From contig NZ_FYEW01000001.1 in NCBI RefSeq assembly GCF_900187375.1, forward strand, positions 1,426,001 to 1,490,000: a stretch of 64,000 nt of DNA, written 5' to 3'. The notes below the pieces were generated by a model, which saw nothing but the letters and a program-made list of their open reading frames with translations, made no database searches and was not told the origin of the DNA. Position numbers and translations under genes: made by a program. This DNA comes from Hymenobacter gelipurpurascens (GTDB taxonomy: Bacteria; Bacteroidota; Bacteroidia; Cytophagales; Hymenobacteraceae). This document shows positions 2,959-16,984 of the stretch, one piece after another (position 1 is the stretch's first letter; each line of letters starts with the position of its first letter).

Positions 2959-3022
2959 GTTGAAAATTATAACAATTGGTTTGAATCGTGATTTCCGCGA
3001 CAAATTGGTTGGCCGACCTTTG
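2959..3022 (+). promoter_or_regulatory. AraC-type operator A and -7 element
   Basis: Direct repeats GTTGAA (2959-2964) and TTTGAA (2980-2985) are exactly 21 bp apart, with the second half reading TTTGAATCGTGATTT. The -7 element GACCTTTG lies at 3015-3022, 35 bp after the start of the second repeat. The same layout occurs at 4592, 11541 and 15840. It precedes the truncated AraC gene, about 135 bases before its ATG. Confidence 0.7.
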
Positions 3023-3156
3023 TAATAGTGAATGCAAGCTGCTCAGGGCAGTGTTGTAGAAATCCTAAACGGCCAACAAGCACATCAAGGCGCACCAGCC
3101 AGCGCCAGCAGAGCGCCCACTTCGGGCCGGCTCCTTGATGTTCTACCCAATGCACG

Positions 3157-3696
3157 ATGGCTGACCAGCTTATCACCCAGAACTTCCAGCTTGGCGCAGG
3201 CTCTGTGAGGCCCAATGGCTTCAAAGCCTACGCTATTGATACATCCGTCAATCCGTCACCCTCCTACAACCGCCGCGACTTTTACAAGGCCAGCCTGGTG
3301 ACGGGCCATTTCGTGCTTCAGGTGGCCGGTCGCAGCCTGGAGCTCAACGGCACCTACTTATTCTTTGCGAATCCACGCATTCCGTATTCCACGCTGCTGC
3401 TCTCGGTTCACATTACCGGGTATGCCTGCCTGTTTACCGAAGACTTCCTCCAGGCCAATAACCTGTTCGACAGCATGCAACAAGATGCTTTGTTCGCCAG
3501 TGGCGGCATTCCCGCATACCGGCTGACCGAGGGGCAGGCCGCGTATTGCACCGACATTTTCCACAAGATGCAGGAAGAGCAAAGCACCGGTTACCGGTTC
3601 AAGAACGACCTGATTCGCTCCTACCTACAGCTGCTCCTTCACGAGGCCTTTCGGGGGCAACACAACGCCTCGTTCGAAAGCCCTTGCTATTGTTAA
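3157..3696 (+). pseudogene. AraC-family regulator, truncated: sensor domain only
   Basis: The 179 residues correspond to the N-terminal ligand-binding domain of the full-length AraC protein at 10649. Shared stretches include GFKAYAIDTSVNPSPSYNRR (in the paralogue GFKAYQVDTAVNPGPTYRRR), FYKA, YSCLFTE-like YACLFTE and QLLLHEA. The reading frame stops at the point where the paralogue continues into its two helix-turn-helix motifs, so no DNA-binding domain remains. No HTH-coding remnant follows, which indicates a deletion rather than a single stop. It keeps operator A and a promoter, so it may still be expressed. It could be inert, or could form inactive heterodimers with the paralogue; the latter is speculation. 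Confidence 0.8.
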
Positions 3697-3729
3697 CACC
3701 AAGGCATCGATAGGCTTTGGGCCTCCGGC

Positions 3730-4413
3730 CTAACGGCCCGTTACGGAATAGCGCATCCAGAGAATATTGTCGGGCAGCTGCTCCACTTGCTGCAGCTGCA
3801 GCTGGGCCGGCGGGCCGGGCTGCTCGCCCTGCTCGAACACCGTGGGGGAGCTGGCCGCCCCGTCAATAACGGGGTAGTACAGCAAGCTGAGCTCGTCGAC
3901 TAAGCCGGCCTTGAGCAGGGAGCCGTTGACGTGACCGCCGCCTTCCAGCAAGATGGTTTGGATGGGAAACAGCCGGCCGAGCTTCTCCAGCACCAGCGCA
4001 AAATCGAGTTCCTGGACGCCACCAAAGAGGTACGACACACCCTGGCGGCGCAGATAGGCCAGGTACTCGTCGCTGACCTGCTCACTGAGCACCGCCACCA
4101 CGTGGTCTCCGTCGATGTAAGCTGATTCCCAGCCCAGCTTGCCGTGCGCGTCGACGGCGACCGCGAAGGATGTCGCCTCTTTATCGGCCACGAAGTCTTG
4201 GCGGTCGGGCACCGAATCTCCCGCCCGCAGGTCGGGCGGTAGGCCGCCGGTAAAGTCCACTTCGAACGTCACGCGCCCGCAAAGCCAGGCCTGCGCATCA
4301 AAGTTGGCAGCCGTGGTTTCGTAGGCCTTGGTGTCGGGCTTTCCGCCCCAGCGCTTTGTAATAATACGGCCGTCGAGCGAGGCCATCATGTGACAGATTA
4401 CGTGGGGTTTCAT
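3730..4413 (-). CDS. RibD C-terminal domain / dihydrofolate reductase family protein
   Basis: This is a 227-residue protein of the RibD C-terminal (DHFR-fold) family, NADPH-dependent reductases. It shows the start HVICHMMASLDGRI, central WLCGRVTFE, and LLEGGGHVNGSLLKAGLVDELSLLYYPVIDG, all classical for the family. It lacks the deaminase half of true RibD, so it is a stand-alone reductase of unknown substrate rather than a riboflavin enzyme. It is a lone minus-strand gene facing the truncated AraC gene. A weak minus-strand -7-like GCCCTTTG lies at 4529-4536. Confidence 0.9.
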   Translation of the reverse strand: MKPHVICHMMASLDGRIITKRWGGKPDTKAYETTAANFDAQAWLCGRVTFEVDFTGGLPPDLRAGDSVPDRQDFVADKEATSFAVAVDAHGKLGWESAYIDGDHVVAVLSEQVSDEYLAYLRRQGVSYLFGGVQELDFALVLEKLGRLFPIQTILLEGGGHVNGSLLKAGLVDELSLLYYPVIDGAASSPTVFEQGEQPGPPAQLQLQQVEQLPDNILWMRYSVTGR

Positions 4414-4591
4414 AAGAGCAGGAATAAAGGAGAGGTTAGTGGCAGGTGCTTACACCCTTTGGGCCACTGGAAGCTAATACGGCCCTTGCTTAAGGCAGGT
4501 GCTTTGTGCCACTACCGCCAGCCTGGTACAAAGGGCAAGCAGTCCAAGTGCCCGGACAGCTTCGATGCAGACGTGGTAAAACCGGCATCTG

Positions 4592-5755
<1,164 letters not shown>

Positions 5756-5762
5756 CCAAGCC

Positions 5763-6671
<909 letters not shown>

Positions 6672-6696
6672 CACCAATAACTGCCTCCGTCGTACC

Positions 6697-7128
6697 ATGA
6701 AACGACTCACCCACTTCGTTTACCTGCTCTTACTTCTGGTCACTATGGACACGCTTGCCCAATCCACCACGGAAACCGAAATCCTCAACTTATCCCAGGA
6801 GAAATTCCGGTGGAAAACGACAGGAAAAATTGACCTGGTGGAAGACTTGTTCGACGACGAACTGGTTTTCATTCACCTCAATGGCCATTTTTCTTCCAAG
6901 AAGGAATGGATACAAGAGCTGCGGACCAAGCGGTTTGTCTACAACTCGATTGACCTGAAGGAGGCTTCGGCCAAGGTGTATGGTGATACCGCCGTGCTGG
7001 TGGGCCGCGCCACCTTCAAAGTCACCATGGGCGGTTCCAAAGGCACTTACAACCTGGTGTACACGGAAGTTTACACCAAGAAACAGGGCAAGTGGAAGCT
7101 CGTGAACCTGCACACCACGATGGGCTAA
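6697..7128 (+). CDS. Exported SnoaL-like/DUF4440 nuclear transport factor 2-fold protein
   Basis: This is a 143-residue protein with an N-terminal signal peptide (KRLTHFVYLLLLLVTMDTLAQ, cleavage near Gln22) followed by one NTF2-like cone-fold domain of the DUF4440/SnoaL type, seen in FRWKTTGKIDLVEDLFDDELVF and in the last strand GKWKLVNLHTT. Some members of the superfamily are isomerases or cyclases and many have no known activity. It sits between two aldo/keto reductase genes, in the same orientation. It is one of five NTF2-like proteins in this window. Confidence 0.88.
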   Translation: MKRLTHFVYLLLLLVTMDTLAQSTTETEILNLSQEKFRWKTTGKIDLVEDLFDDELVFIHLNGHFSSKKEWIQELRTKRFVYNSIDLKEASAKVYGDTAVLVGRATFKVTMGGSKGTYNLVYTEVYTKKQGKWKLVNLHTTMG

Positions 7129-7141
7129 GCCCGCTTGCTGA

Positions 7142-8164
<1,023 letters not shown>

Positions 8165-8218
8165 CGCAGGCGGGTAGCATCACATCATCACTGAGCTCGC
8201 CTTGCTGAAATATTAATC

Positions 8219-8256
8219 GACAGGCCCCTACCCTAACAGCTGGGGGCCTGTTTTTT
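8219..8256 (+). terminator. Rho-independent terminator after the AKR cluster
   Basis: The stem CAGGCCCC with GGGGCCTG and a 13-base loop is followed by six T residues. It ends the AKR cluster just before the ATG of the NAD(P)-binding protein. Confidence 0.85.
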
Positions 8257-8265
8257 ATCCTACCC

Positions 8266-8838
8266 ATGAAAAACGTACTCATCCTTGGTGCCGGCGGCAA
8301 CATTGCCAAACAGGTTACTGCCCTGCTTGCTGGCGAGAAGGATATCAACCTAACCCTGTTTGTACGCAGCGCTGGCCGCCTGCGTAGCACGCCTGCCAAC
8401 GCCCGCGTGGTGGAAGGCGACGTGCTGAACTATGCGCAGCTGAAAGAAGCCGTTACGGGTCAGGACATCGTCTACGCGAACCTTTCGGGCGACCTGGAGC
8501 GCATGGCCCAAAACATCGTAAAAGCCATGGAGGAAACCGGGGTAAAGCACCTCATCTTCATCAGCTCGATTGAAATCTATGCGACGCCGCTGAAGGCTGT
8601 GCTGAAGCCCTACCGCAAAGCGGCCGACGTCATTGAAGCTTCGAGCCTGGACTACACCGTGCTGCGCCCGGCCTGGTTTACCTCCGACAACGAGGTGGAC
8701 TTTGAAATCACCCACAAGGGCGAGCCGGAGCGCGGCTCGGTCATCTCGCAGAAGAGCTTGGCCACGTTCATCACCCAGATTATCGAGTCGCCCGAGAAGT
8801 ACGCGCGGGAAAGCCTGGGCATCAACAAGCCCCGGTAA
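8266..8838 (+). CDS. NAD(P)H-binding protein, atypical SDR (NmrA/YwnB-like)
   Basis: This is a 190-residue atypical SDR with one Rossmann domain. The N-terminal VLILGAGGNIAKQV is the dinucleotide-binding loop, and HLIFISSIEIY and YTVLRPAWFT are family landmarks. The usual YxxxK catalytic pair appears only as a variant (PYRKAAD), so it may bind NAD(P) without classical dehydrogenase chemistry. It starts 10 bases after a terminator, with no clear promoter, and ends before another terminator. Role unknown; such proteins are often induced by electrophiles. Confidence 0.9.
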   Translation: MKNVLILGAGGNIAKQVTALLAGEKDINLTLFVRSAGRLRSTPANARVVEGDVLNYAQLKEAVTGQDIVYANLSGDLERMAQNIVKAMEETGVKHLIFISSIEIYATPLKAVLKPYRKAADVIEASSLDYTVLRPAWFTSDNEVDFEITHKGEPERGSVISQKSLATFITQIIESPEKYARESLGINKPR

Positions 8839-8907
8839 GTTGACACAAACTGGTTGTCCTACTGTAGGCGCTAACCAATCGTCCCATTTTGACGTGAAGC
8901 ATATCCT

Positions 8908-8936
8908 CGAAAGCCCAGCTCTGGGCTTTCGTTGTT
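8908..8936 (+). terminator. Rho-independent terminator
   Basis: GAAAGCCCAG (8909-8918) pairs with CTGGGCTTTC (8921-8930) around a minimal loop, followed by a T-rich stretch. It separates the NAD(P)-binding protein gene from the antiporter gene. Confidence 0.8.
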
Positions 8937-8955
8937 TCCTCTGGCCCCCTCCCCT

Positions 8956-10575
8956 ATGCAAAGCCTGCTGTTCGAATTCGTCTTTCTGGTCTTACTCATC
9001 CTGGCGCTGGTCATGCTGGCCCAGAAGCTGCGGCTGGCCTATCCCATTGTGCTGGTGCTGGGGGGCCTGGCGCTGAGCTTTACGGGGGCCTTCACCAACC
9101 TGGAGATTAACCCGGAGGTCGTGTTCCTGATTTTCCTGCCGCCGCTGCTCTACGAAGCGGCCTGGCAGGTGTCTTGGAAGGAGTTTTGGAAGTGGCGGCG
9201 GGTAATTGCCAGCTTTGCTTTCCCTATTGTCATCCTTACGGCGTGCATCGTGGCACTCGTGTCGCATTGGCTGATTCCAGGCTTTACGCTGGCGCTGGGC
9301 TTTTTGCTGGGCGGTATTGTGTCGCCGCCCGATGCCATTTCGGCCACCACCATCATGCGGCAGGTGAAAGTACCTAAGGTGCTGCTCAGCGTCATTGAGG
9401 GCGAAAGCCTGCTCAACGATGCCTCCTCGCTGATTGTGTTCCGGTTTGCGTTGGCGGCCGTGCTAACCGGGCAGTTCGCCTTCAGCGAGGCGGCCGGCAG
9501 CTTTTTCCTGGTCATTGTGTTGGGCACGCTCATCGGCCTGGGGGTCGGGCTGGTGTTTTACGCCATTCACCGCTGGCTACCGACGACTCCCAGCATCGAC
9601 ACGGTCCTGAGCCTGGTCACGCCCTACTGCATGTACTACGCGGCCGAACACTTCCATTACTCCGGGGTACTGGCGGTGGTCAGCGGCGGGCTACTGCTTT
9701 CCAGCCAGCGCAACACCATGCTCACCTACCGCAGCCGGATTGAGGGCGTGAACGTGTGGACGGTGCTGAGCTTTGTCTTCAACGGATTCATCTTCCTGCT
9801 CATTGGCTTGCAGTTGCCCACCATCACCCAGCAACTGGGCGACACCAGCCTGGGCACGGCCATTGGCTACGGCCTGCTCATCTCCTTGGCCCTCATTGTA
9901 ACCCGGCTGCTGTGCGCCATGGGCGCGTCGGTCTTTACGCGGGTGGCCAGTCGCTTCATCACGGTGGCCGATGCCAATCCGGGCTGGAAGCAGCCGCTCG
10001 TTACGGGCTGGGCCGGCATGCGAGGGGTGGTGTCGCTGGCCTCGGCGCTGGCCATTCCCCTGCTCACGCCGTCGGGGCAGCCCTTTCCCTTCCGCAACCT
10101 GATTCTGTTCATCACCTTCGTGGTCATCCTCGTCACGCTGGTGCTGCAGGGCCTCACGCTGCCCTGGCTGATTCGCAAATTGCGCCTGGAGGACAGGTTC
10201 GCGACCATCCCGGAGGAGCGCCAGGAACTGCTGATTCAGAAAAAGCTGGCTCAGCAAGCCCTGCGCTCCCTGGAGGAAAAATACCCACAGGACGGCCCGC
10301 CGAACGACTTCTTGCATAACCTACGGGCGCGGTTGCAGCTCGACAGTCGGTTTCTCACCCAGGCCCTAGATGTAAGGGATGATGCGCTGGACGATACCCT
10401 GCAACAGTACCAGCAATTCTATCTGGACGTGTTGGACCAGCAGCGCGTCCTGCTGCAACAGATGAACCAGCGGGAGGATTTCGATGAAGAGGTTATTCGA
10501 AAGTACCTGGCCATCCTGGACCTGGAAGAATACAAGCTGCGCGAAAAGCAGCTGCAACCCGTCGGCGCGGAATAG
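8956..10575 (+). CDS. Na+/H+ antiporter (CPA1 family)
   Basis: This 539-residue inner-membrane protein belongs to the CPA1 Na+/H+ exchanger family. About 12 hydrophobic segments occupy residues 1-410, with the conserved GESLLNDASSLIVFRFAL segment containing the ND ion-binding motif and PPDAISATT upstream. A charged cytoplasmic tail of about 125 residues (AQQALRSLEEKYPQDG onward) follows. The ATG at 8956 starts directly in the first membrane segment; a TTG at 8932 is less likely because it overlaps the terminator. It would exchange Na+ (or K+) for H+. It stands alone between a terminator and the AraC gene. Confidence 0.94.
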   Translation: MQSLLFEFVFLVLLILALVMLAQKLRLAYPIVLVLGGLALSFTGAFTNLEINPEVVFLIFLPPLLYEAAWQVSWKEFWKWRRVIASFAFPIVILTACIVALVSHWLIPGFTLALGFLLGGIVSPPDAISATTIMRQVKVPKVLLSVIEGESLLNDASSLIVFRFALAAVLTGQFAFSEAAGSFFLVIVLGTLIGLGVGLVFYAIHRWLPTTPSIDTVLSLVTPYCMYYAAEHFHYSGVLAVVSGGLLLSSQRNTMLTYRSRIEGVNVWTVLSFVFNGFIFLLIGLQLPTITQQLGDTSLGTAIGYGLLISLALIVTRLLCAMGASVFTRVASRFITVADANPGWKQPLVTGWAGMRGVVSLASALAIPLLTPSGQPFPFRNLILFITFVVILVTLVLQGLTLPWLIRKLRLEDRFATIPEERQELLIQKKLAQQALRSLEEKYPQDGPPNDFLHNLRARLQLDSRFLTQALDVRDDALDDTLQQYQQFYLDVLDQQRVLLQQMNQREDFDEEVIRKYLAILDLEEYKLREKQLQPVGAE

Positions 10576-10648
10576 CCCCGCCGAATGACCTCATCCGCAA
10601 AGCCTATCGGGCCAACCACCTGCTTGACACCGTCATTAATTTACTGCC

Positions 10649-11545
10649 ATGGACCCCAAATTAGCGCCCGCTCCCTCCTTGCTCAGCACTCATCAGGACC
10701 TGAGTGCCCAGGAACTGAAGCTGAAAGGCTTTAAAGCCTATCAGGTCGATACGGCCGTCAATCCCGGCCCGACCTATCGCCGGCGGGACTTCTACAAGGT
10801 GGCGCTGATGACCAGCCACTGCACCGTGCACTACGCCGACCGCAGCATTGAGCTGAACGGCACGAGCCTGATGTTTGCCAATCCGCATATTCCGTATTCC
10901 ATCGAGCTACACGCACCGCGGTTGACCGGCTACTCCTGCCTGTTCACCGAGGCCTACATGAAGGAAAACGACCGGTCGGAAAGCTTGCACCAGTCGCCGC
11001 TGTTTAAGGTCGGGGGTACGCCCATTTTCCACCTCAGCGCGGAGCAAGCCGCCTACGCGCAGGGCATTTTTCAGAAAATCCTGGCCGAGCAGGCCACCGA
11101 GTACCTGTACAAAGGCGACTTGATTCGCACCTACCTGCAGTTGCTCATCCACGAGGCGCTGCGCATGCAGCCGACCGAAAGCTTCGTGCAGCACAAGAAT
11201 TCTGCTTCCCGCATCGCCTCCCTGTTCCTGGAACTGCTGGAGCGACAATTCCCCATTGAAAGCCCGGAAAAGCCACTTTCCTTTAAAACGGCGCAGGACT
11301 TTGCCGAGCCCTTGGCCATCCACGTCAACCACCTGAACCGGGCCGTGAAGGAAGCAACCGGCAAATCCACCACCGCCCACGTTGCCGAGCGGGTTGTCGG
11401 CGAAGCCAAAGCCCTACTGCACCACACCGACTGGGACGTGGCCACCATTGGCTACGCGTTGGGCTTCGAATACGCCTCCTACTTCAACATCTTTTTTAAG
11501 AAGCACACCGGGCTTACCCCGCTGGCTTTTCGCAAGGCTGTTTGA
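10649..11545 (+). CDS. AraC-family transcriptional regulator (likely activator of the TTTGAA regulon)
   Basis: This is a 298-residue regulator. Residues 1 to about 180 form a cupin-like sensor domain; the C-terminal 100 residues carry two helix-turn-helix motifs (FAEPLAIHVNHLNRAVKEAT and VATIGYALGFEYASYFNIFF), ending in the PLAFRK signature. AraC proteins use the two HTHs to read direct repeats about 21 bp apart. Its stop codon lies inside operator C (11541-11567), which precedes the Pao-type oxidoreductase operon. The truncated copy at 3157 shares its sensor domain. It is therefore the best candidate to bind operators A-D; the inducer is probably an aldehyde or related electrophile, by comparison with YqhC of E. 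coli (inference). Confidence 0.94.
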   Translation: MDPKLAPAPSLLSTHQDLSAQELKLKGFKAYQVDTAVNPGPTYRRRDFYKVALMTSHCTVHYADRSIELNGTSLMFANPHIPYSIELHAPRLTGYSCLFTEAYMKENDRSESLHQSPLFKVGGTPIFHLSAEQAAYAQGIFQKILAEQATEYLYKGDLIRTYLQLLIHEALRMQPTESFVQHKNSASRIASLFLELLERQFPIESPEKPLSFKTAQDFAEPLAIHVNHLNRAVKEATGKSTTAHVAERVVGEAKALLHHTDWDVATIGYALGFEYASYFNIFFKKHTGLTPLAFRKAV

Positions 11546-11605
11546 TTCGTGTAAGGATTCGTTTGAATTCTATAGGAATACGCTCTGACCGGGCGAATAC
11601 CTTTG
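11541..11605 (+). promoter_or_regulatory. AraC-type operator C and -7 element
   Basis: TTTGAT (11541-11546) and TTTGAA (11562-11567) are 21 bp apart, with GTGTAAGGA between and TTCTATAGG after the second. The -7 element TACCTTTG lies at 11598-11605, 36 bp past the second repeat. The first repeat overlaps the stop codon of the AraC gene. A leader of roughly 220 bases, with nothing recognisable in it, separates it from the first Pao gene. Confidence 0.75.
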
Positions 11606-11831
11606 GGTAGGGCTGCCGTTTAACTAGCAAGCTCCTCTGTATCATCTGCTGGCGTCCCGCTTGGGGAGCACTTCAAGAAGGTGTCTCCTTGATGCGCTAT
11701 GGGTTCCCCGTTCCACTTCATCCGGCAAATCGTCTTGGAGGTGACTTCGAAGCCGAGCCAAAAACGGTTCGCTTTGTCCGGTTCTAGTATCCTCCCTTCC
11801 GGCTTTTTTCTCATTAATCCTTCCCCACGCC

Positions 11832-12464
11832 ATGGCTGCTGACTTATTTCCTCCCGCCGACGCTCCCAAGCCCGATGATGGCTCGCGCCGCTCGTTTATG
11901 AAACAGGCCGGCGGCATCCTGGGCCTGGCCCTGGCACCGCCGCTGGTTGGACAGGCCGAGCGCCTGACGGCCTATTCCAGAATAATTGAAGGCGCCACGG
12001 AGTTCACGCTACGCGTCAACGGGCAGGCCCACACCGTGCGCGCGGAGCCTCGCGTCACGCTGCTTGATGCGCTGCGCGAGCGGCTGGATTTGACCGGGAC
12101 CAAAAAGGGCTGCGACCACGGCCAGTGCGGGGCCTGCACGGTGCACGTAAATGGCCAGCGCACCCTCTCGTGCCTGACGCTGGCCGTGATGGCGCAGGGC
12201 AAGGAGATTACGACCATCGAGGGCCTAGCCAACGGCAACGAGCTGCACCCGATGCAGGCGGCCTTTCTGAAGCACGACGGCCTGCAGTGCGGCTACTGTA
12301 CGCCCGGCCAGATTATGTCGGGCGTGGCCTGCGTGAAGGAAGGCCACGCTGGTACCGACGACCAGGCCCGCGAGTGGATGAGCGGCAACCTCTGCCGCTG
12401 CGGCGCTTATCCTAATATCCTGGCCGCGGTGCGCGAAGTAGCCGGTCAATCTTCAAAAGGCTAA
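11832..12464 (+). CDS. paoA: Aldehyde oxidoreductase, 2Fe-2S subunit (PaoA-like)
   Basis: This 210-residue small subunit of the xanthine dehydrogenase family carries two [2Fe-2S] clusters that pass electrons from the molybdenum site to FAD. The plant-type ferredoxin motif is CDHGQCGACTVHVNG plus a later Cys, and the second cluster ligands are in CGYCTPG and CRCGAY. The N-terminus has a twin-arginine signal (SRRSFMKQAGGILGLAL), so the assembled complex is probably exported. It is first of a three-gene operon; the FAD subunit begins 4 bases after its stop. The order and features match E. coli PaoABC. Confidence 0.95.
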   Translation: MAADLFPPADAPKPDDGSRRSFMKQAGGILGLALAPPLVGQAERLTAYSRIIEGATEFTLRVNGQAHTVRAEPRVTLLDALRERLDLTGTKKGCDHGQCGACTVHVNGQRTLSCLTLAVMAQGKEITTIEGLANGNELHPMQAAFLKHDGLQCGYCTPGQIMSGVACVKEGHAGTDDQAREWMSGNLCRCGAYPNILAAVREVAGQSSKG

Positions 12465-12468
12465 TCCC

Positions 12469-13455
12469 ATGAACGACTTCAGCTACACCCAGGCCGCCAC
12501 GGCCAAAGAAGCCACCGGCCGGTTGAAAGATAAGCCTGCGGCCGCCTACATCGCCGGCGGCACCACGCTGCTCGACCTCATGAAGGCCAACCTGCAGGAA
12601 CATCCGCAGCTCGTGGACATCAACCTGCTGCCCTTCACCGGCATCGAGCAGACCAAAGACGGCCTGCGCATCGGGGCGCTGGAGCGCATGAACGCCGTGG
12701 GCGAGCACCCGCTAGTAGTGCAGCAGTTTCCGGCCATTTCGCAGTCTCTGCTGCTAGCAGCATCGCCCCAGCTGCGCAACATGGCCAGCATCGGCGGCAA
12801 CATCCTGCAGCGCACCCGCTGCGGATACTTCCGCGACCCGGCTTTTCCCTGCAACAAGCGCGTGCCCGGCTCCGGCTGCCCCGCCCTGACCGGTGACAAC
12901 CATAACCTAGCCATCCTGGGGGTGAGCGACAGTTGCATTGCCAACTCCTATCCCGGCGACTTCTCGGTGGCGCTGACGGCCTTCGATGCCGTGCTGACAC
13001 TGGAAAACCAGCGAGGCAAACAGCGTCGGGTCCCCCTCACCGATTTCTACCTTCTGCCGGGCAATACCCCCCACAAGGAAACGGTGTTGGAGCCCGGCGA
13101 ATTGATTGTGGCCGTCACGATTCCGACCACAACCCAGGCCCAGCGCTCGACCTACCTGAAGGTACGCGAGCGCAGCAGCTACGCCTACGCTCTCGCCTCG
13201 GCTGCCGTGGGCCTTGACGTGCAAGCTGGCACCATCCGTTCGGCCCGGGTGGCCCTGGGCGGCGCGGGCGCCCAGCCCTGGCGCTCCCGCGAAGCGGAAA
13301 AACTGCTCACCGGGGCGCCCGCCACGGAGGCCACGTTTCGGGCCGCGGCGGCGGCCGCCCTGCAGGGTGCCCAACCCCGGGAGCACAACCGCTTCAAGGT
13401 GGAGCTGGCGCAGAACACCCTGGTGCGGGCCCTGCAGCAGGTAGCTGCGGGCTAG
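12469..13455 (+). CDS. paoB: Aldehyde oxidoreductase, FAD subunit (PaoB-like)
   Basis: This is a 328-residue FAD-binding subunit. The N-terminal half has the flavin-binding loop AAYIAGGTTLLDLMK and the RNMASIGGN motif. A cysteine-rich insert (TRCGYFRDPAFPCNK, then GSGCPAL, then DSCIAN) matches the segment that holds the extra [4Fe-4S] cluster in PaoB-type enzymes. The C-terminal CO dehydrogenase flavoprotein domain follows. It would transfer electrons to an acceptor outside the Mo site. It is middle gene of the operon, 59 bases before the Mo subunit. Confidence 0.95.
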   Translation: MNDFSYTQAATAKEATGRLKDKPAAAYIAGGTTLLDLMKANLQEHPQLVDINLLPFTGIEQTKDGLRIGALERMNAVGEHPLVVQQFPAISQSLLLAASPQLRNMASIGGNILQRTRCGYFRDPAFPCNKRVPGSGCPALTGDNHNLAILGVSDSCIANSYPGDFSVALTAFDAVLTLENQRGKQRRVPLTDFYLLPGNTPHKETVLEPGELIVAVTIPTTTQAQRSTYLKVRERSSYAYALASAAVGLDVQAGTIRSARVALGGAGAQPWRSREAEKLLTGAPATEATFRAAAAAALQGAQPREHNRFKVELAQNTLVRALQQVAAG

Positions 13456-13514
13456 CAGCCCGGCTTTGTCGCCCCTTATTTCCATCCCCATCGCCCTTAC
13501 GCCCGAAGCCTCCC

Positions 13515-15827
13515 ATGGATACCGAACCCCAATTCTTTGAAACCAACGCGACGCCAGGCGTCGTGGGACAACCCCTGAGCCGCGTCGACGGCTGGGCGAA
13601 AGTGACGGGCCAGGCCAAGTACTCGGCTGAGTACAACCGCCTGCCGGGGCTGGTGCACGCCGTGCTCAAAACCAGCGACGTCGCCAAAGGGCGGGTGGTG
13701 AGCATCGATGCCAGCGCCGCCCAGCGGCAGCCGGGCGTGCTGGGCATCTTCACCCACGAGAACCTGCCCAAGCTTGCTCGTTCCCCCAACAGCCCGGAGG
13801 AAAAAGCGGCTCTCAATTCCCCGATGAGCTTTTTTCCGATGCAGTCGGACCGTATTGAGTATGCCGGCCAGCCGGTGGCCATCGTGGTGGCCGATACGCT
13901 GGAGCGCGCCCAGTATGCCGCCAGCCTGCTCAAAGTCACCATCTCGCCCGAGGCCCCGGTGGCTTCGTACCTGGACCCCAAGGCTACGCGATTCGTGCCG
14001 AAGGTGGTAAAGGGCGTGCCCGGCGTGACCAAGCGCGGGGAGGCGCAGGCGGCCTTTGCCAGTGCCCCGGTGCAGCTGACGGCTACCTACCACCACGCCA
14101 CCAACCACCACAATCCCATGGAGCCGGGCGCGACCATTGCCCACTGGGAAGCGGCCGACCGCCTCACCGTTTACGACACCACGCAGGCCATTACCTGGAC
14201 GCAGAAAACCCTGAGCCAGATGCTGGGCCTGAAAATCGAGCAGGTGCACGTGATTAGCAAGTTTCTGGGCGGCGGGTTTGGCTGCAAGGCCTGGGTGTGG
14301 CCCCACGTGGCGCTGGCCCCGCTCGTCGCCCGCGCCGTGGGCCGGCCCGTGAAGCTGGTGCTCACCCGCCCGCAGATGTTTACCGGCATGGGCCACCGCG
14401 AAGACCAGGAGCAGACCCTGCGCCTGGGCGCCACCAGAGAGGGCAAGCTGCTGGCCCTGGTGCACGAGAAAACGTCCACCACTTCGCCCTGGGACGACTA
14501 CGCCGAAAGCAACCACAAGATTCTGGATATGCTCTACGCCCTGCCGGCGTTCGAGTCGACCTACCACCTGGCCCACGCCAATGTGATGACCTCGACTTCG
14601 ACCCGCGCCCCGGGCGAGATGCCCGGCTCGTTTGCCATCGAGTGCTCCATGGACGATTTGGCCGCGCAGCTGAACCTGGACCCCATCCAGGTGCGCCTGC
14701 TCAACCACGCCGACAAAGACCCCGCCACGGGCCACCCCTGGAGCAGCAAGAGCCTGAAGCAGTGCTACCAACGCGGGGCCGAGCTCTTTGGCTGGAATAA
14801 GCGCAACCCCAAAGCCGGCCAGACCCGCGAAGGCCGCATGCTCGTGGGCTGGGGCATGGCCACGGCCAGCTACCCCGTACACAGCGGTAAGGGCAATGCC
14901 CGCGTCCGGCTCTACGCCGACGGCCGCGCTGTCGTGCAGGCCGGCGCCACCGACCTCGGCACCGGCACCTACACCATCAACACCCAGGTGGCGGCCGACG
15001 CGCTGGGCATCGCACCCGAAAACGTCCGCTTCGAGCTGGGCGACAGTAACCTGCCGACCACCACGGTTTCCGGCGGCTCCATGGCGGCCGGCACGGTCTC
15101 CTCGTCGGTGTACCTGGCGGCCCAGGATGTCTGGCGGCAGCTCATCAAAGTAGCCGTGGCCGATAAAAAGTCCCCCCTTTACCGCGCCAAGCCCGCTGAT
15201 GTGGTGATGGAAAAAGGCCGCCTGCAACTCAAAGCCGACCCCGGAAAGGGCGAAGCATTCGGGGAGTTGATGAAGCGAGCTGGCCTGGGCGACGTGGAAG
15301 GCAGCGCCATCGGCCGCTACGGCAGCAACTACGAGGAATCCCTGGCCACGAGCGAGCAGGCTCCGGAACACGCCATGCACGCCTTTGGGGCGCACTTCTG
15401 CGAGGTGCACGTGGACCCCGAGCTGGGAACCGTGCGCGTGACCCGCTGGGTGAGTGTAGTAGCCGGCGGCCGCATACTTAACCCCAAGACGGCCCGCTCG
15501 CAGGTAATGGGCGGCAGCATTTTTGGCATCGGCGCAGCCCTGATGGAGCAGACCGTGCGCGACTCCAATCTGGCTCGCTACACCAATGCCGACCTGGCGG
15601 GCTACCACGTCCCCGTTAACGCCGACATCCCCAATATGACCGTGGAATTCATCGACGAGCATGACCCCTACGTCAACGCAATGGGGGCTAAAGGCATCGG
15701 GGAAATATCGGTCGTGGGCGTCACGGCTGCCGTGTCCAATGCCGTCTTCCATGCCACGGGCCGGCGCCTGCGCTCGTTGCCCATGACGCCGGACAAGGTG
15801 CTGGCAGCGTTGCGGCAACCCTCCTAA
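13515..15827 (+). CDS. paoC: Aldehyde oxidoreductase, molybdopterin-binding subunit (PaoC-like)
   Basis: This is a 770-residue catalytic subunit binding a molybdenum-pterin cofactor and oxidising aldehydes to carboxylic acids. Visible are the N-terminal aldehyde oxidase a/b hammerhead domain (DGWAKVTGQAKYSAEY), the cofactor-binding FLGGGFGCKAWVWPHV, a TDLGTGTYT loop, and the catalytic Glu730 in GAKGIGEISVVG. It closes the paoABC-like operon. No PaoD/MocA maturation factor follows, so cofactor insertion must rely on a gene elsewhere. The stop is 13 bases before operator D. Confidence 0.96.
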   Translation: MDTEPQFFETNATPGVVGQPLSRVDGWAKVTGQAKYSAEYNRLPGLVHAVLKTSDVAKGRVVSIDASAAQRQPGVLGIFTHENLPKLARSPNSPEEKAALNSPMSFFPMQSDRIEYAGQPVAIVVADTLERAQYAASLLKVTISPEAPVASYLDPKATRFVPKVVKGVPGVTKRGEAQAAFASAPVQLTATYHHATNHHNPMEPGATIAHWEAADRLTVYDTTQAITWTQKTLSQMLGLKIEQVHVISKFLGGGFGCKAWVWPHVALAPLVARAVGRPVKLVLTRPQMFTGMGHREDQEQTLRLGATREGKLLALVHEKTSTTSPWDDYAESNHKILDMLYALPAFESTYHLAHANVMTSTSTRAPGEMPGSFAIECSMDDLAAQLNLDPIQVRLLNHADKDPATGHPWSSKSLKQCYQRGAELFGWNKRNPKAGQTREGRMLVGWGMATASYPVHSGKGNARVRLYADGRAVVQAGATDLGTGTYTINTQVAADALGIAPENVRFELGDSNLPTTTVSGGSMAAGTVSSSVYLAAQDVWRQLIKVAVADKKSPLYRAKPADVVMEKGRLQLKADPGKGEAFGELMKRAGLGDVEGSAIGRYGSNYEESLATSEQAPEHAMHAFGAHFCEVHVDPELGTVRVTRWVSVVAGGRILNPKTARSQVMGGSIFGIGAALMEQTVRDSNLARYTNADLAGYHVPVNADIPNMTVEFIDEHDPYVNAMGAKGIGEISVVGVTAAVSNAVFHATGRRLRSLPMTPDKVLAALRQPS

Positions 15828-15839
15828 AACGGCCAGCTG

Positions 15840-15904
15840 TTTGAAAAGTGTAAGCAATGCTTTGAATGCTATAGGCGGGTGCCTTCAGCCCCCGGATACC
15901 TTTG
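15840..15904 (+). promoter_or_regulatory. AraC-type operator D and -7 element
   Basis: TTTGAA at 15840-15845 and TTTGAA at 15861-15866 are 21 bp apart; between them is AAGTGTAAGCAATGC, and CTATAGG follows as in operator C. The -7 element TACCTTTG lies at 15897-15904, 36 bp past the second repeat. It drives the zinc alcohol dehydrogenase gene at 15944. Confidence 0.75.
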
Positions 15905-15943: not shown

Positions 15944-16984
15944 ATGATTGAATCGAAAGGCTACGCGGCGCAAAGCCCAACCAGTGACCTGGCTCCCTGG
16001 ACCTTTGAACGCCGCGACGTGGGGGCACACGACGTGCAGATTGAAATTCTCTTCTGCGGCGTGTGCCACTCCGACTACCACCAGATTAAAAACGACTGGT
16101 TCCCGGGCGTCTTCCCGATGGTGCCGGGCCACGAAATCGTGGGCCGCATCACCCAGGTGGGCGACCACGTAAAGAACTTCAAAGTAGGCGACCTGGCCGG
16201 CGTCGGCTGCTTGGTGGACTCCTGCCAGACCTGCGCCAATTGTCAGCAGGACCTGGAGCAGTACTGCCTGGAAGGCAATACCCAAACCTACAACCAGGTA
16301 GGCCGCGACGGAAACGTCACCTACGGCGGCTATGCCAACAACATCGTGGTGCGCGAGGAATTTGCGCTGCACGTGTCGGAAAAGCTCGACCTGGCGGCCG
16401 TGGCGCCGCTGCTCTGTGCGGGCATTACTACCTACTCGCCGCTGCGTTACTGGAAAGTGGGCCAGGGCCACAAGCTGGCGGTGCTGGGCCTCGGCGGCCT
16501 GGGCCACATGGCCGTGAAATGGGGCGTGGCGTTTGGCGCGGAAGTGACCGTGCTCAGCACTTCGCCCGACAAGGAAGCCGCTGCCCGGGCTCTGGGCGCG
16601 CACAACTTCGTAGTGACCAAGGACGAGGCGCAGGTGGCGGCCGTGAAAGGCTCGTTCGACTTCATCCTCGACACCGTTTCGGCGCAGCACGACCTGGGCA
16701 TGTACTTGTCGCTGCTGGCTACCAACGGCACGCACATCATCGTGGGCGCGCCGCCCAAGCCCTTAGACCTGTCGGCCTTCTCGCTGTTCGACGGGCGCAA
16801 GAGCGTGGTGGGCTCCAGCATCGGCGGCATTGCTGAAACGCAGGAAATGCTCGACTTCGCGGCCGAGCACAACATCGTTTCGGATATCGAGCTGATTAAT
16901 TTCAAGGACATCAACACCGCGTATGAGCGCATGCTGAAAGGCGACGTGCGCTACCGCTTCGTCATCGACATCGCCACGCTGTAG
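15944..16984 (+). CDS. NAD(P)-dependent zinc alcohol dehydrogenase (YahK/CAD-like)
   Basis: This 346-residue medium-chain dehydrogenase is closest in character to YahK/cinnamyl-alcohol dehydrogenase-type aldehyde reductases. It has catalytic-zinc ligands in CGVCHSDYH and GHEIVG, a structural zinc lobe (CQTCANCQQDLEQYC), and the Rossmann loop GLGGLGHMAVK. It would reduce a broad range of aldehydes with NADPH. It follows the PaoABC-like operon and is under operator D, so it appears to be a second aldehyde-removing branch under the same control. Confidence 0.94.
   Translation: MIESKGYAAQSPTSDLAPWTFERRDVGAHDVQIEILFCGVCHSDYHQIKNDWFPGVFPMVPGHEIVGRITQVGDHVKNFKVGDLAGVGCLVDSCQTCANCQQDLEQYCLEGNTQTYNQVGRDGNVTYGGYANNIVVREEFALHVSEKLDLAAVAPLLCAGITTYSPLRYWKVGQGHKLAVLGLGGLGHMAVKWGVAFGAEVTVLSTSPDKEAAARALGAHNFVVTKDEAQVAAVKGSFDFILDTVSAQHDLGMYLSLLATNGTHIIVGAPPKPLDLSAFSLFDGRKSVVGSSIGGIAETQEMLDFAAEHNIVSDIELINFKDINTAYERMLKGDVRYRFVIDIATL

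Follow-up and report, generated by a model that had tools for sequence, protein, structure and literature searches.

The window, a 64-kb stretch of the 5.06-Mb genome (G000) of Hymenobacter gelipurpurascens, contains four promoter regions, A to D, each marked by two copies of a TTTGAA-like repeat. The first copies begin at 2959, 4592, 11541 and 15840, and in every case the second copy follows exactly 21 bp on. The four regions precede, in order, a gene for an AraC-type regulatory domain that lacks a helix-turn-helix (HTH), a cluster of aldo/keto reductase (AKR) genes, the genes for a PaoABC-like aldehyde oxidoreductase and an Ahr-like dehydrogenase gene. A gene for a full-length AraC-family regulator, here called 10649 after its start position, ends inside site C (Table 1). 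The initial annotation had reported the repeats and their spacing, and both are confirmed by the sequence and by a scan of the 64 kb with the degenerate pattern TTTGAW-N3-TRTAA-N7-TTTGAAT. With up to two mismatches allowed, this pattern has four matches, which are sites A to D, against an expectation of 0.01 from shuffled sequence. The description of the repeats as TTTGAA-like suits all four sites, with the reservation that the first copy of site A reads GTTGAA. The second repeat starts 35, 35, 36 and 36 bp before the –7 elements GACCTTTG, GACCTTTG, TACCTTTG and TACCTTTG, as had been proposed, and the –7 element at this distance has the form NAnnTTTG.

Alignment of the four sites with four more from the same genome gives a 14-nt half-site with the consensus TTTGAWnnnYRTAA and reveals that the operator is one half-site repeated. 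What had been described as a shared middle (TATAA or TGTAA) and a separate tail are therefore the B-boxes of the first and the second copy of this half-site. Over the eight sites the former reads YRTA rather than a fixed word, its first base being T in five and C in three of the first half-sites. In operator C, the TGA of the first TTTGA is the stop codon of 10649 (11543–11545).

Table 1 Operators, –7 elements and genes of the system; positions without a prefix are those of the window.
Feature	Position	Strand	Remark
Operator A, tandem half-sites	2959..3000	+	second TTTGA at 2980; upstream of the HTH-less AraC-domain gene
–7 element of promoter A, GACCTTTG	3015..3022	+	35 bp after second TTTGA
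Operator B	4592..4633	+	second TTTGA at 4613; upstream of the aldo/keto reductase cluster
–7 element of promoter B, GACCTTTG	4648..4655	+	35 bp
Operator C	11541..11582	+	second TTTGA at 11562
–7 element of promoter C, TACCTTTG	11598..11605	+	36 bp
Operator D	15840..15881	+	second TTTGA at 15861
–7 element of promoter D, TACCTTTG	15897..15904	+	36 bp
AraC-family regulator, 298 aa	10649..11545	+	C-terminal double HTH (PF12833); proposed activator
HTH-less AraC-type regulatory/dimerisation-domain protein, 179 aa	3157..3696	+	ends after regulatory domain
Aldo/keto reductase	4766..5755	+	ATG at 4766 likely start
AKR 5823–6671, SnoaL-like 6697–7128, AKR 7175–8164, NAD-binding protein 8266–8838	5823..8838	+	probable rest of the B operon
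PaoABC-like molybdenum aldehyde oxidoreductase: FeS 11832–12464, FAD 12469–13455, Mo 13515–15827	11832..15827	+	
Zinc alcohol dehydrogenase	15944..16984	+	nearest NCBIfam model is Ahr aldehyde reductase
Further 21-bp-spaced sites, same genome	C1:1416209, C1:1421093, C1:530066, C1:534580		
Further site, same genome	C1:522473 (= L057:2473)		
Further site, same genome	L056:18017		second copy ATTGA

Conservation at related promoters, on which the initial annotation had staked its case, was found in loci of other genomes, in whole genomes of the genus and in a further set of AraC relatives referred to below as the named set. A half-site matrix trained on G000 only was applied to 60 loci of other genomes, of which two (L140 and L141) had been chosen for a motif match and at least five (L096, L099, L115, L128 and L129) around AraC genes with a motif match already known; it yields 72 half-site pairs at 21 bp and 3–17 at each other spacing from 14 to 35. 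For a set of 131 AraC genes, kept from 137 open reading frames by requiring a C-terminal HTH and removing duplicates, we used a B-box-free criterion, TTTGA-N16-TTTGA with one mismatch in ten allowed, from –40 to +300 relative to the stop codon. Such a tandem lies near the stop in 57 of the genes, other spacings between 15 and 30 giving 0–8. The operator starts at exactly –5 in 43 of these 57, so that the TGA stop of the regulator is the TGA of the first TTTGA. A larger set of 169 AraC genes (130 from the genus and 39 from outside), filtered in the same way and scored with a slightly laxer operator rule, has the operator in 98 cases, 65 of them at offset –5 (51 in the genus, 14 outside). These adjacency counts from AraC gene sets supersede those of a greedy open-reading-frame picker that missed some regulator genes.

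The –7 element keeps a fixed distance as well. Among 83 operators adjacent to regulators, NAnnTTTG is found 35 bp (20) or 36 bp (51) from the start of the second half-site in 71, with 3 at the other positions scanned. On a grid of repeat spacing (18–24) against –7 distance (25–45), covering 162 loci with the window included and nearly all of them around AraC genes, the cells (21, 35) and (21, 36) hold 54 and 65 promoters, 119 in total, and any other cell 0–5. Repeat spacings of 18 and 24 show no excess in the matrix scan, the AraC-stop scan or the grid. The full promoter pattern, TTTGA-N16-TTTGA-N31/32-AnnTTTG, was then counted genome by genome in 81 genomes of the genus, G000 among them; it has 157 matches in 52 genomes, and the reversed-pattern control has one. 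It occurs in 51 of the 58 genomes that carry the AraC subfamily (E up to 1e-40) and in 1 of the 23 that do not (Fisher 8.6e-13, Spearman 0.76). The grid also has a cell, (21, 30), with five promoters whose –7 box stands 30 bp after the second half-site.

The named set, largely separate from the preceding ones, comprises 81 AraC relatives in 80 loci (the best 80 of 202), mostly from Flavobacterium and also from Dyadobacter, Pedobacter, Sphingobacterium, Mucilaginibacter, Chitinophaga and others. A tandem at 21 bp lies within 25 bp of the stop in 74 of the 81 genes (other spacings, 0–12). An operator is present in 78 of the genes; the best one per gene starts at +4 in 46, at –5 in 18 and at +5 in 7, and the –7 box is 36 bp (67) or 35 bp (10) away, with three elsewhere. 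Overlap with the stop codon is common in the genus and not universal, and outside the genus the operator more often starts 4 bp past the stop. At the cut-offs used, the subfamily itself has a patchy distribution: it is present in 21 of 198 phylum genomes and 27 of 295 class genomes. These searches, the one for the subfamily within the genus and the search for short frames described below scored a limited number of candidates per genome.

A regulon of four promoters, as first proposed, is too narrow. G000 has ten candidate promoters, of which six match the full pattern exactly; the six outside the window divide into three exact matches and three with one deviation. The non-exact candidates are site A and C1:534580 (both GTTGA), C1:530066, where the –7 box reads TATCTTTA, and L056:18017. 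Two of the outside operators stand before paoA (530066) and ahr (534580) of a second paoABC-ahr copy (G000:C1:530066–535724, or L057:10066–15724), which is a paralogous repeat of the arrangement at C and D. Besides 10649 the same genome encodes three further intact members of the AraC subfamily, four in all; those at C1:1420143, 1423164 and 527952 have 62%, 54% and 47% identity to it. Apart from the HTH-less 3157 product, the remaining AraC proteins of the genome are at most 30% identical to 10649 or match it only in part. The picture in G000 is one of related operators alongside related regulators, rather than a single four-promoter regulon.

The C-terminal double HTH of 10649 is recognized by PF12833 (E 2.9e-18) and PF00165 (E 3.3e-7), both above gathering scores, and aligns gap-free to the DNA-binding domain of AraC (2k9s). 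Pfam gives no match for the N-terminal part; the HTH-less paralogue, which is 51% identical, has a predicted structure like that of an AraC dimerisation domain. Across the family, little variation is seen in the A-box TTTGA or in helix 3, which reads NHLNRAVKE or nearly so, and the B-boxes vary among subfamilies. Residue 278, at the start of helix 276–287 in the predicted model and presumably the counterpart of MarA T93, varies along with B-box position 11. In the 169-gene set, H at this residue pairs with G in 42 of 49 first and 43 of 49 second half-sites, and N pairs with A in 7 of 7 first and 6 of 7 second half-sites; Y is mixed. In a merged set (169 + 81 genes, 243 after duplicate removal), column 278 comes first among the 80 HTH columns where position 11 is concerned, with an uncorrected p = 0.002.

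We read the sites as operators of a Bacteroidota AraC subfamily, with 10649 most likely activating promoters C and D and plausibly B and A (probability about 0.8). Each half-site consists of the A-box TTTGA and a B-box, YRTAA here, about one helical turn further on, and one dimer would take two direct-repeat half-sites 21 bp apart. In response to an inducer of electrophile or aldehyde type, 10649 would activate paoABC from C and ahr from D, and plausibly also the AKR operon from B and the HTH-less sensor-domain gene from A. In class II geometry of AraC activators the proximal half-site occupies the –33/–35 region. The downstream half-site starts 35 or 36 bp before NAnnTTTG and thus reaches the –33 region, which is this geometry; both the 21-bp direct repeats and the fixed proximal half-site near –33/–35 are present, as predicted for class II promoters. 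The earlier proposal of AraC-type direct-repeat operators in fixed phase with the –7 box, and with oxidoreductase targets, is supported. The assignment of 10649 to C and D is likely because operator C is joined to its stop codon and D is of the same type. For A and B it is plausible because a 19-kb locus of genome G023 (L099) carries both kinds, an A/B-like operator before an AKR gene and a C-like operator before ahr, around the single full-length AraC found there, which is 69% identical to 10649. The initial annotation had made 10649 the likely regulator of all four sites; the role is likely for at least C, and a single regulator for all sites is unsupported.

Several observations weigh against this reading. 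At the strict cut-off, the tandem is missing downstream of 74 of the 131 AraC genes, and an exact promoter match is missing from seven of the 58 subfamily-bearing genomes. The genes within each set are related, and the counts are therefore of non-independent events. Five near orthologues of 10649 (72–78% identity; L091, L093, L094, L095 and L097) have no forward operator at the stop; the operator between AraC and paoA is inverted in these loci, at most about 100 bp past the AraC stop. The covariation of residue 278 with the operator is suggestive only: column 278 ranks 5 for B-box positions 10 and 11 together and 70 of 74 for position 11 of the half-site in the regulators' own promoters, and tree-based covariation over 83 of the 98 regulator–operator pairs (4098 protein–site tests) gives no clearly significant pair, column 278 included. 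Finally, the second half-site has GTGATTT at A and B and CTATAGG at C and D, and the recognition helices of the four intact subfamily members in G000 are similar, not identical, so that cross-binding is possible. A clean recognition code, H for G and N for A, looked strong in the raw counts but was rejected: the tree has only 7–8 changes, and significance is lost on correction. The five loci with an inverted operator also show GGCAAC, then 16 bp and GGTATA or AGTATA downstream, with no NAnnTTTG at the usual place, perhaps a class I promoter of another kind.

A tentative alternative is that the operators are split among paralogues, 10649 serving C and D, and A and B being served by another member (e.g. 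C1:1420143) or by several. A and B differ from C and D in the –7 distance (35 against 36 bp) as well as in the second half-site, and the paralogues have sites in their own regions: C1:1421093 behind AraC 1420143, L056:18017 behind AraC 1423164, and L057:10066 and 14580 in the 527952 region. In three loci (L092, L184 and L191), moreover, 527952-like AraC genes are followed, 123–246 bp on, by an operator of the GTRTAC type seen at the second pao copy. Against such a division, L099 has both kinds of operator around the one full-length AraC found there, and the 35- and 36-bp phases each occur with either kind of second B-box.

The gene at 3157 had been described as a truncated AraC gene. It looks instead like a member of an HTH-less family and a candidate feedback inhibitor, although some evidence is to the contrary. 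A search of 5.8 billion proteins with its product gave 61 hits, itself included. Fourteen relatives of 168–189 aa (most of them 182–189 aa) lack an HTH and are 52–56% identical to it, a fifteenth short relative (P0061, 181 aa) is 40% identical, and the nine best-scoring are all short and HTH-less. The structural model (mean predicted local distance difference test score 75.8) best matches the isolated dimerisation domain of AraC and also the regulatory domains of RhaR, BgaR and ExsA. The frame is open behind an operator in the window and in L093, L094 and L097, where it was found as an open reading frame; the genes of L089, L093, L094 and L097 were found via their operator, whose presence is there by construction. 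Among the four intact copies, the ratio of nonsynonymous to synonymous divergence (dN/dS) is 0.23–0.45 in the five pairs with finite dS, with dS near saturation and one pair saturated; it is lowest for L097–L093 and L094–L097 (0.23) and for window–L094 and window–L097 (0.28), and part of this divergence may be older than the HTH loss. Two short frames with E up to 1e-33 turn up in 120 genomes of the genus, in G000 and G035 (L094), both behind an operator, along with a 272-aa frame in G009 that looks like a disrupted full-length regulator.

Set against the short relatives, the open frames, the dN/dS values and the model, it seems unlikely that 3157 is a decaying truncated AraC gene with a leftover operator. 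Decay would fit the lack of an HTH, none being seen by eye in three frames of the 3' flank, and a C-terminal tail that differs from those of its relatives. The identity of the product to three full-length regulators in the same alignment (50–51%) is also little below that to the HTH-less proteins. The copy in L089 (10566–11101) is frameshifted near residue 50, and in L095 a matching operator at 6549 leads directly into a cupin frame, the HTH-less gene being absent; these two loci raise the odds of a pseudogene and lower those of a feedback cassette. The proposition that the HTH-less gene is intact wherever the operator is was rejected on the same two loci. For the HTH-less family member that we favor, a protein that could dimerise and bind ligand, but not DNA, and is induced by its possible partner would suggest negative feedback or ligand buffering.

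Many regulators of the subfamily also have a half-site at their own start. An in-frame ATG is preceded by TAnnTTTG, 11 or 12 bp upstream, in 52 of the 169 AraC genes. A Flavobacterium study places TAnnTTTG at –12 to –5 (PMC9723704), by which such genes would have leaderless starts. In 45 of the 52 (35 of them exact), a TTTGA precedes the TA by exactly 11 bp, the B-box running into the –7 box; this is seen in none of ten other leaderless-type genes in the same loci and in all 64 such apparently leaderless starts of the named set. Position 11 of the own-start half-site is that of the first operator half-site in 29 of 37 genes (169-gene set). In the merged set, the two agree at position 10 in 77 of 93 (52.4 expected) and at position 11 in 49 of 93 (35.5 expected), uncorrected for relatedness. 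A second half-site 21 bp upstream of the own-start half-site shows no excess (7 of 102; other distances of 10–29 give 1–9). A protein bound to the own-start half-site should block RNA polymerase, and autorepression would follow. Autoregulation of 10649 itself in this manner was rejected, the motif being absent from its start and present in many relatives.

Some AraC-family proteins repress, and the regulator could in principle do so at A to D; this is quite improbable, as the proximal half-site there stops short of the –7 box on its upstream side and extends into the –33 region, like that of a class II activator, while the own-start half-site of many regulators, by contrast, overlaps the –7 box itself. 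Loose TTTGAW pairs at 21 bp in genomes without the subfamily might suggest that the repeats arose by chance in AT-rich promoter DNA, or as coding repeats spaced by a multiple of three, but this can practically be dismissed given the spacing grid, the lack of excess at 18 and 24, the reversed-pattern control and the co-occurrence with the subfamily. Beyond the operators of the AraC subfamily, a phylum-wide cassette can be imagined, self-contained, with a half-site fused to the leaderless promoter of the regulator for autorepression and an operator at or just after the stop to activate the gene that follows; some Hymenobacter would add an HTH-less domain, switched on from an operator of the same kind and titrating regulator or ligand. 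Its existence is doubtful; if real, the HTH-less domain would be a bacterial analogue of Id-type dominant-negative feedback.

A downstream open reading frame was found for 115 of the 119 grid promoters, and the targets given here are among the 25 of 43 families listed. The first target is a short-chain dehydrogenase in 48, an AKR in 23, a cupin in 12, a zinc alcohol dehydrogenase in 3 and a protein matching two-iron-two-sulphur models in 2. A carbonyl or electrophile response would be the natural reading of this set. Aldehyde detoxification, the function first suggested, is plausible for the PaoABC-like, Ahr-like and AKR genes, but over all operators the commonest first target is a short-chain dehydrogenase. 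In the window, PaoC (626.9 of 1180 bits) and PaoA (238.5 of 322) score below the NCBIfam equivalog cut-offs, which makes the enzyme PaoABC-like, not PaoABC, and the product of the gene at 15944 scores 306.6 bits against a cut-off of 470 for Ahr and is Ahr-like only. The first AKR gene likely starts at the ATG given in Table 1, because a GTG start at 4637 would place promoter B within the coding sequence. A gene for a RibD C-terminal-domain reductase lies on the minus strand (3730–4413), between the HTH-less gene and promoter B.

This is a real, well-phased AraC-type operator system, its mechanism a variant of a known one. AraC of E. coli acts at araI1–I2 through half-sites in direct repeat with 21-bp spacing, of which the proximal half-site is at the –33/–35 region. 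The system described here shares with it the C-terminal double HTH, the 21-bp direct repeats, the location of the proximal half-site and, for the HTH-less paralogue as modelled, a regulatory domain of the AraC dimerisation-domain fold. Unlike E. coli AraC, it has the Bacteroidota –7 box NAnnTTTG, the half-site TTTGA...YRTAA, an operator at or near the stop codon of the regulator and, in many relatives, a lone half-site merged with what looks like a leaderless promoter of the regulator itself. E. coli YqhC, the AraC-type activator of yqhD-dkgA, acts on an aldehyde reductase and a methylglyoxal reductase (PMC8262776). The likeness to YqhC is in the type of target, and the targets here also include a PaoABC-like enzyme, short-chain dehydrogenases and cupins. 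AraC negative regulators (ANR, e.g. Aar) are described as small proteins (PMC5570504, PMC10148876), and they resemble the 3157 product as proteins that could restrain an AraC-family activator. The 3157 product is a 179-aa stand-alone domain modelled with the AraC dimerisation-domain fold, which sets it outside that family. ANR proteins have another fold. In the open-access literature searched, we recognized no description of the motif, the cassette, the stop-codon operator, the start-codon half-site or the HTH-less family.

Many Bacteroidota AraC genes annotated simply as "helix-turn-helix protein" or "activator of pobA" would gain predictable sites, promoters and targets, because the operator sits at a nearly fixed place by the stop codon of its regulator. 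Because B-boxes differ naturally from one subfamily to another, the AraC recognition helix becomes open to testing, and operator-controlled HTH-less proteins would provide AraC proteins with a natural means of feedback. Elsewhere in the window, GGACCTTTG occurs at 1513–1521, between a Crp-family gene (802–1458) and an enoyl-CoA hydratase-like gene at 1573, and the half-site matrix scan reports no tandem half-site there. A distinct type of operator, CAGTAGATGGTTTGA followed by GCGCA and similar sequences, is found, for example, at G093:C25:109984, G091:C7:1064246 and G102:C11:133219; among the matches listed it occurs once per genome in many genomes, and it probably has an AraC of its own.

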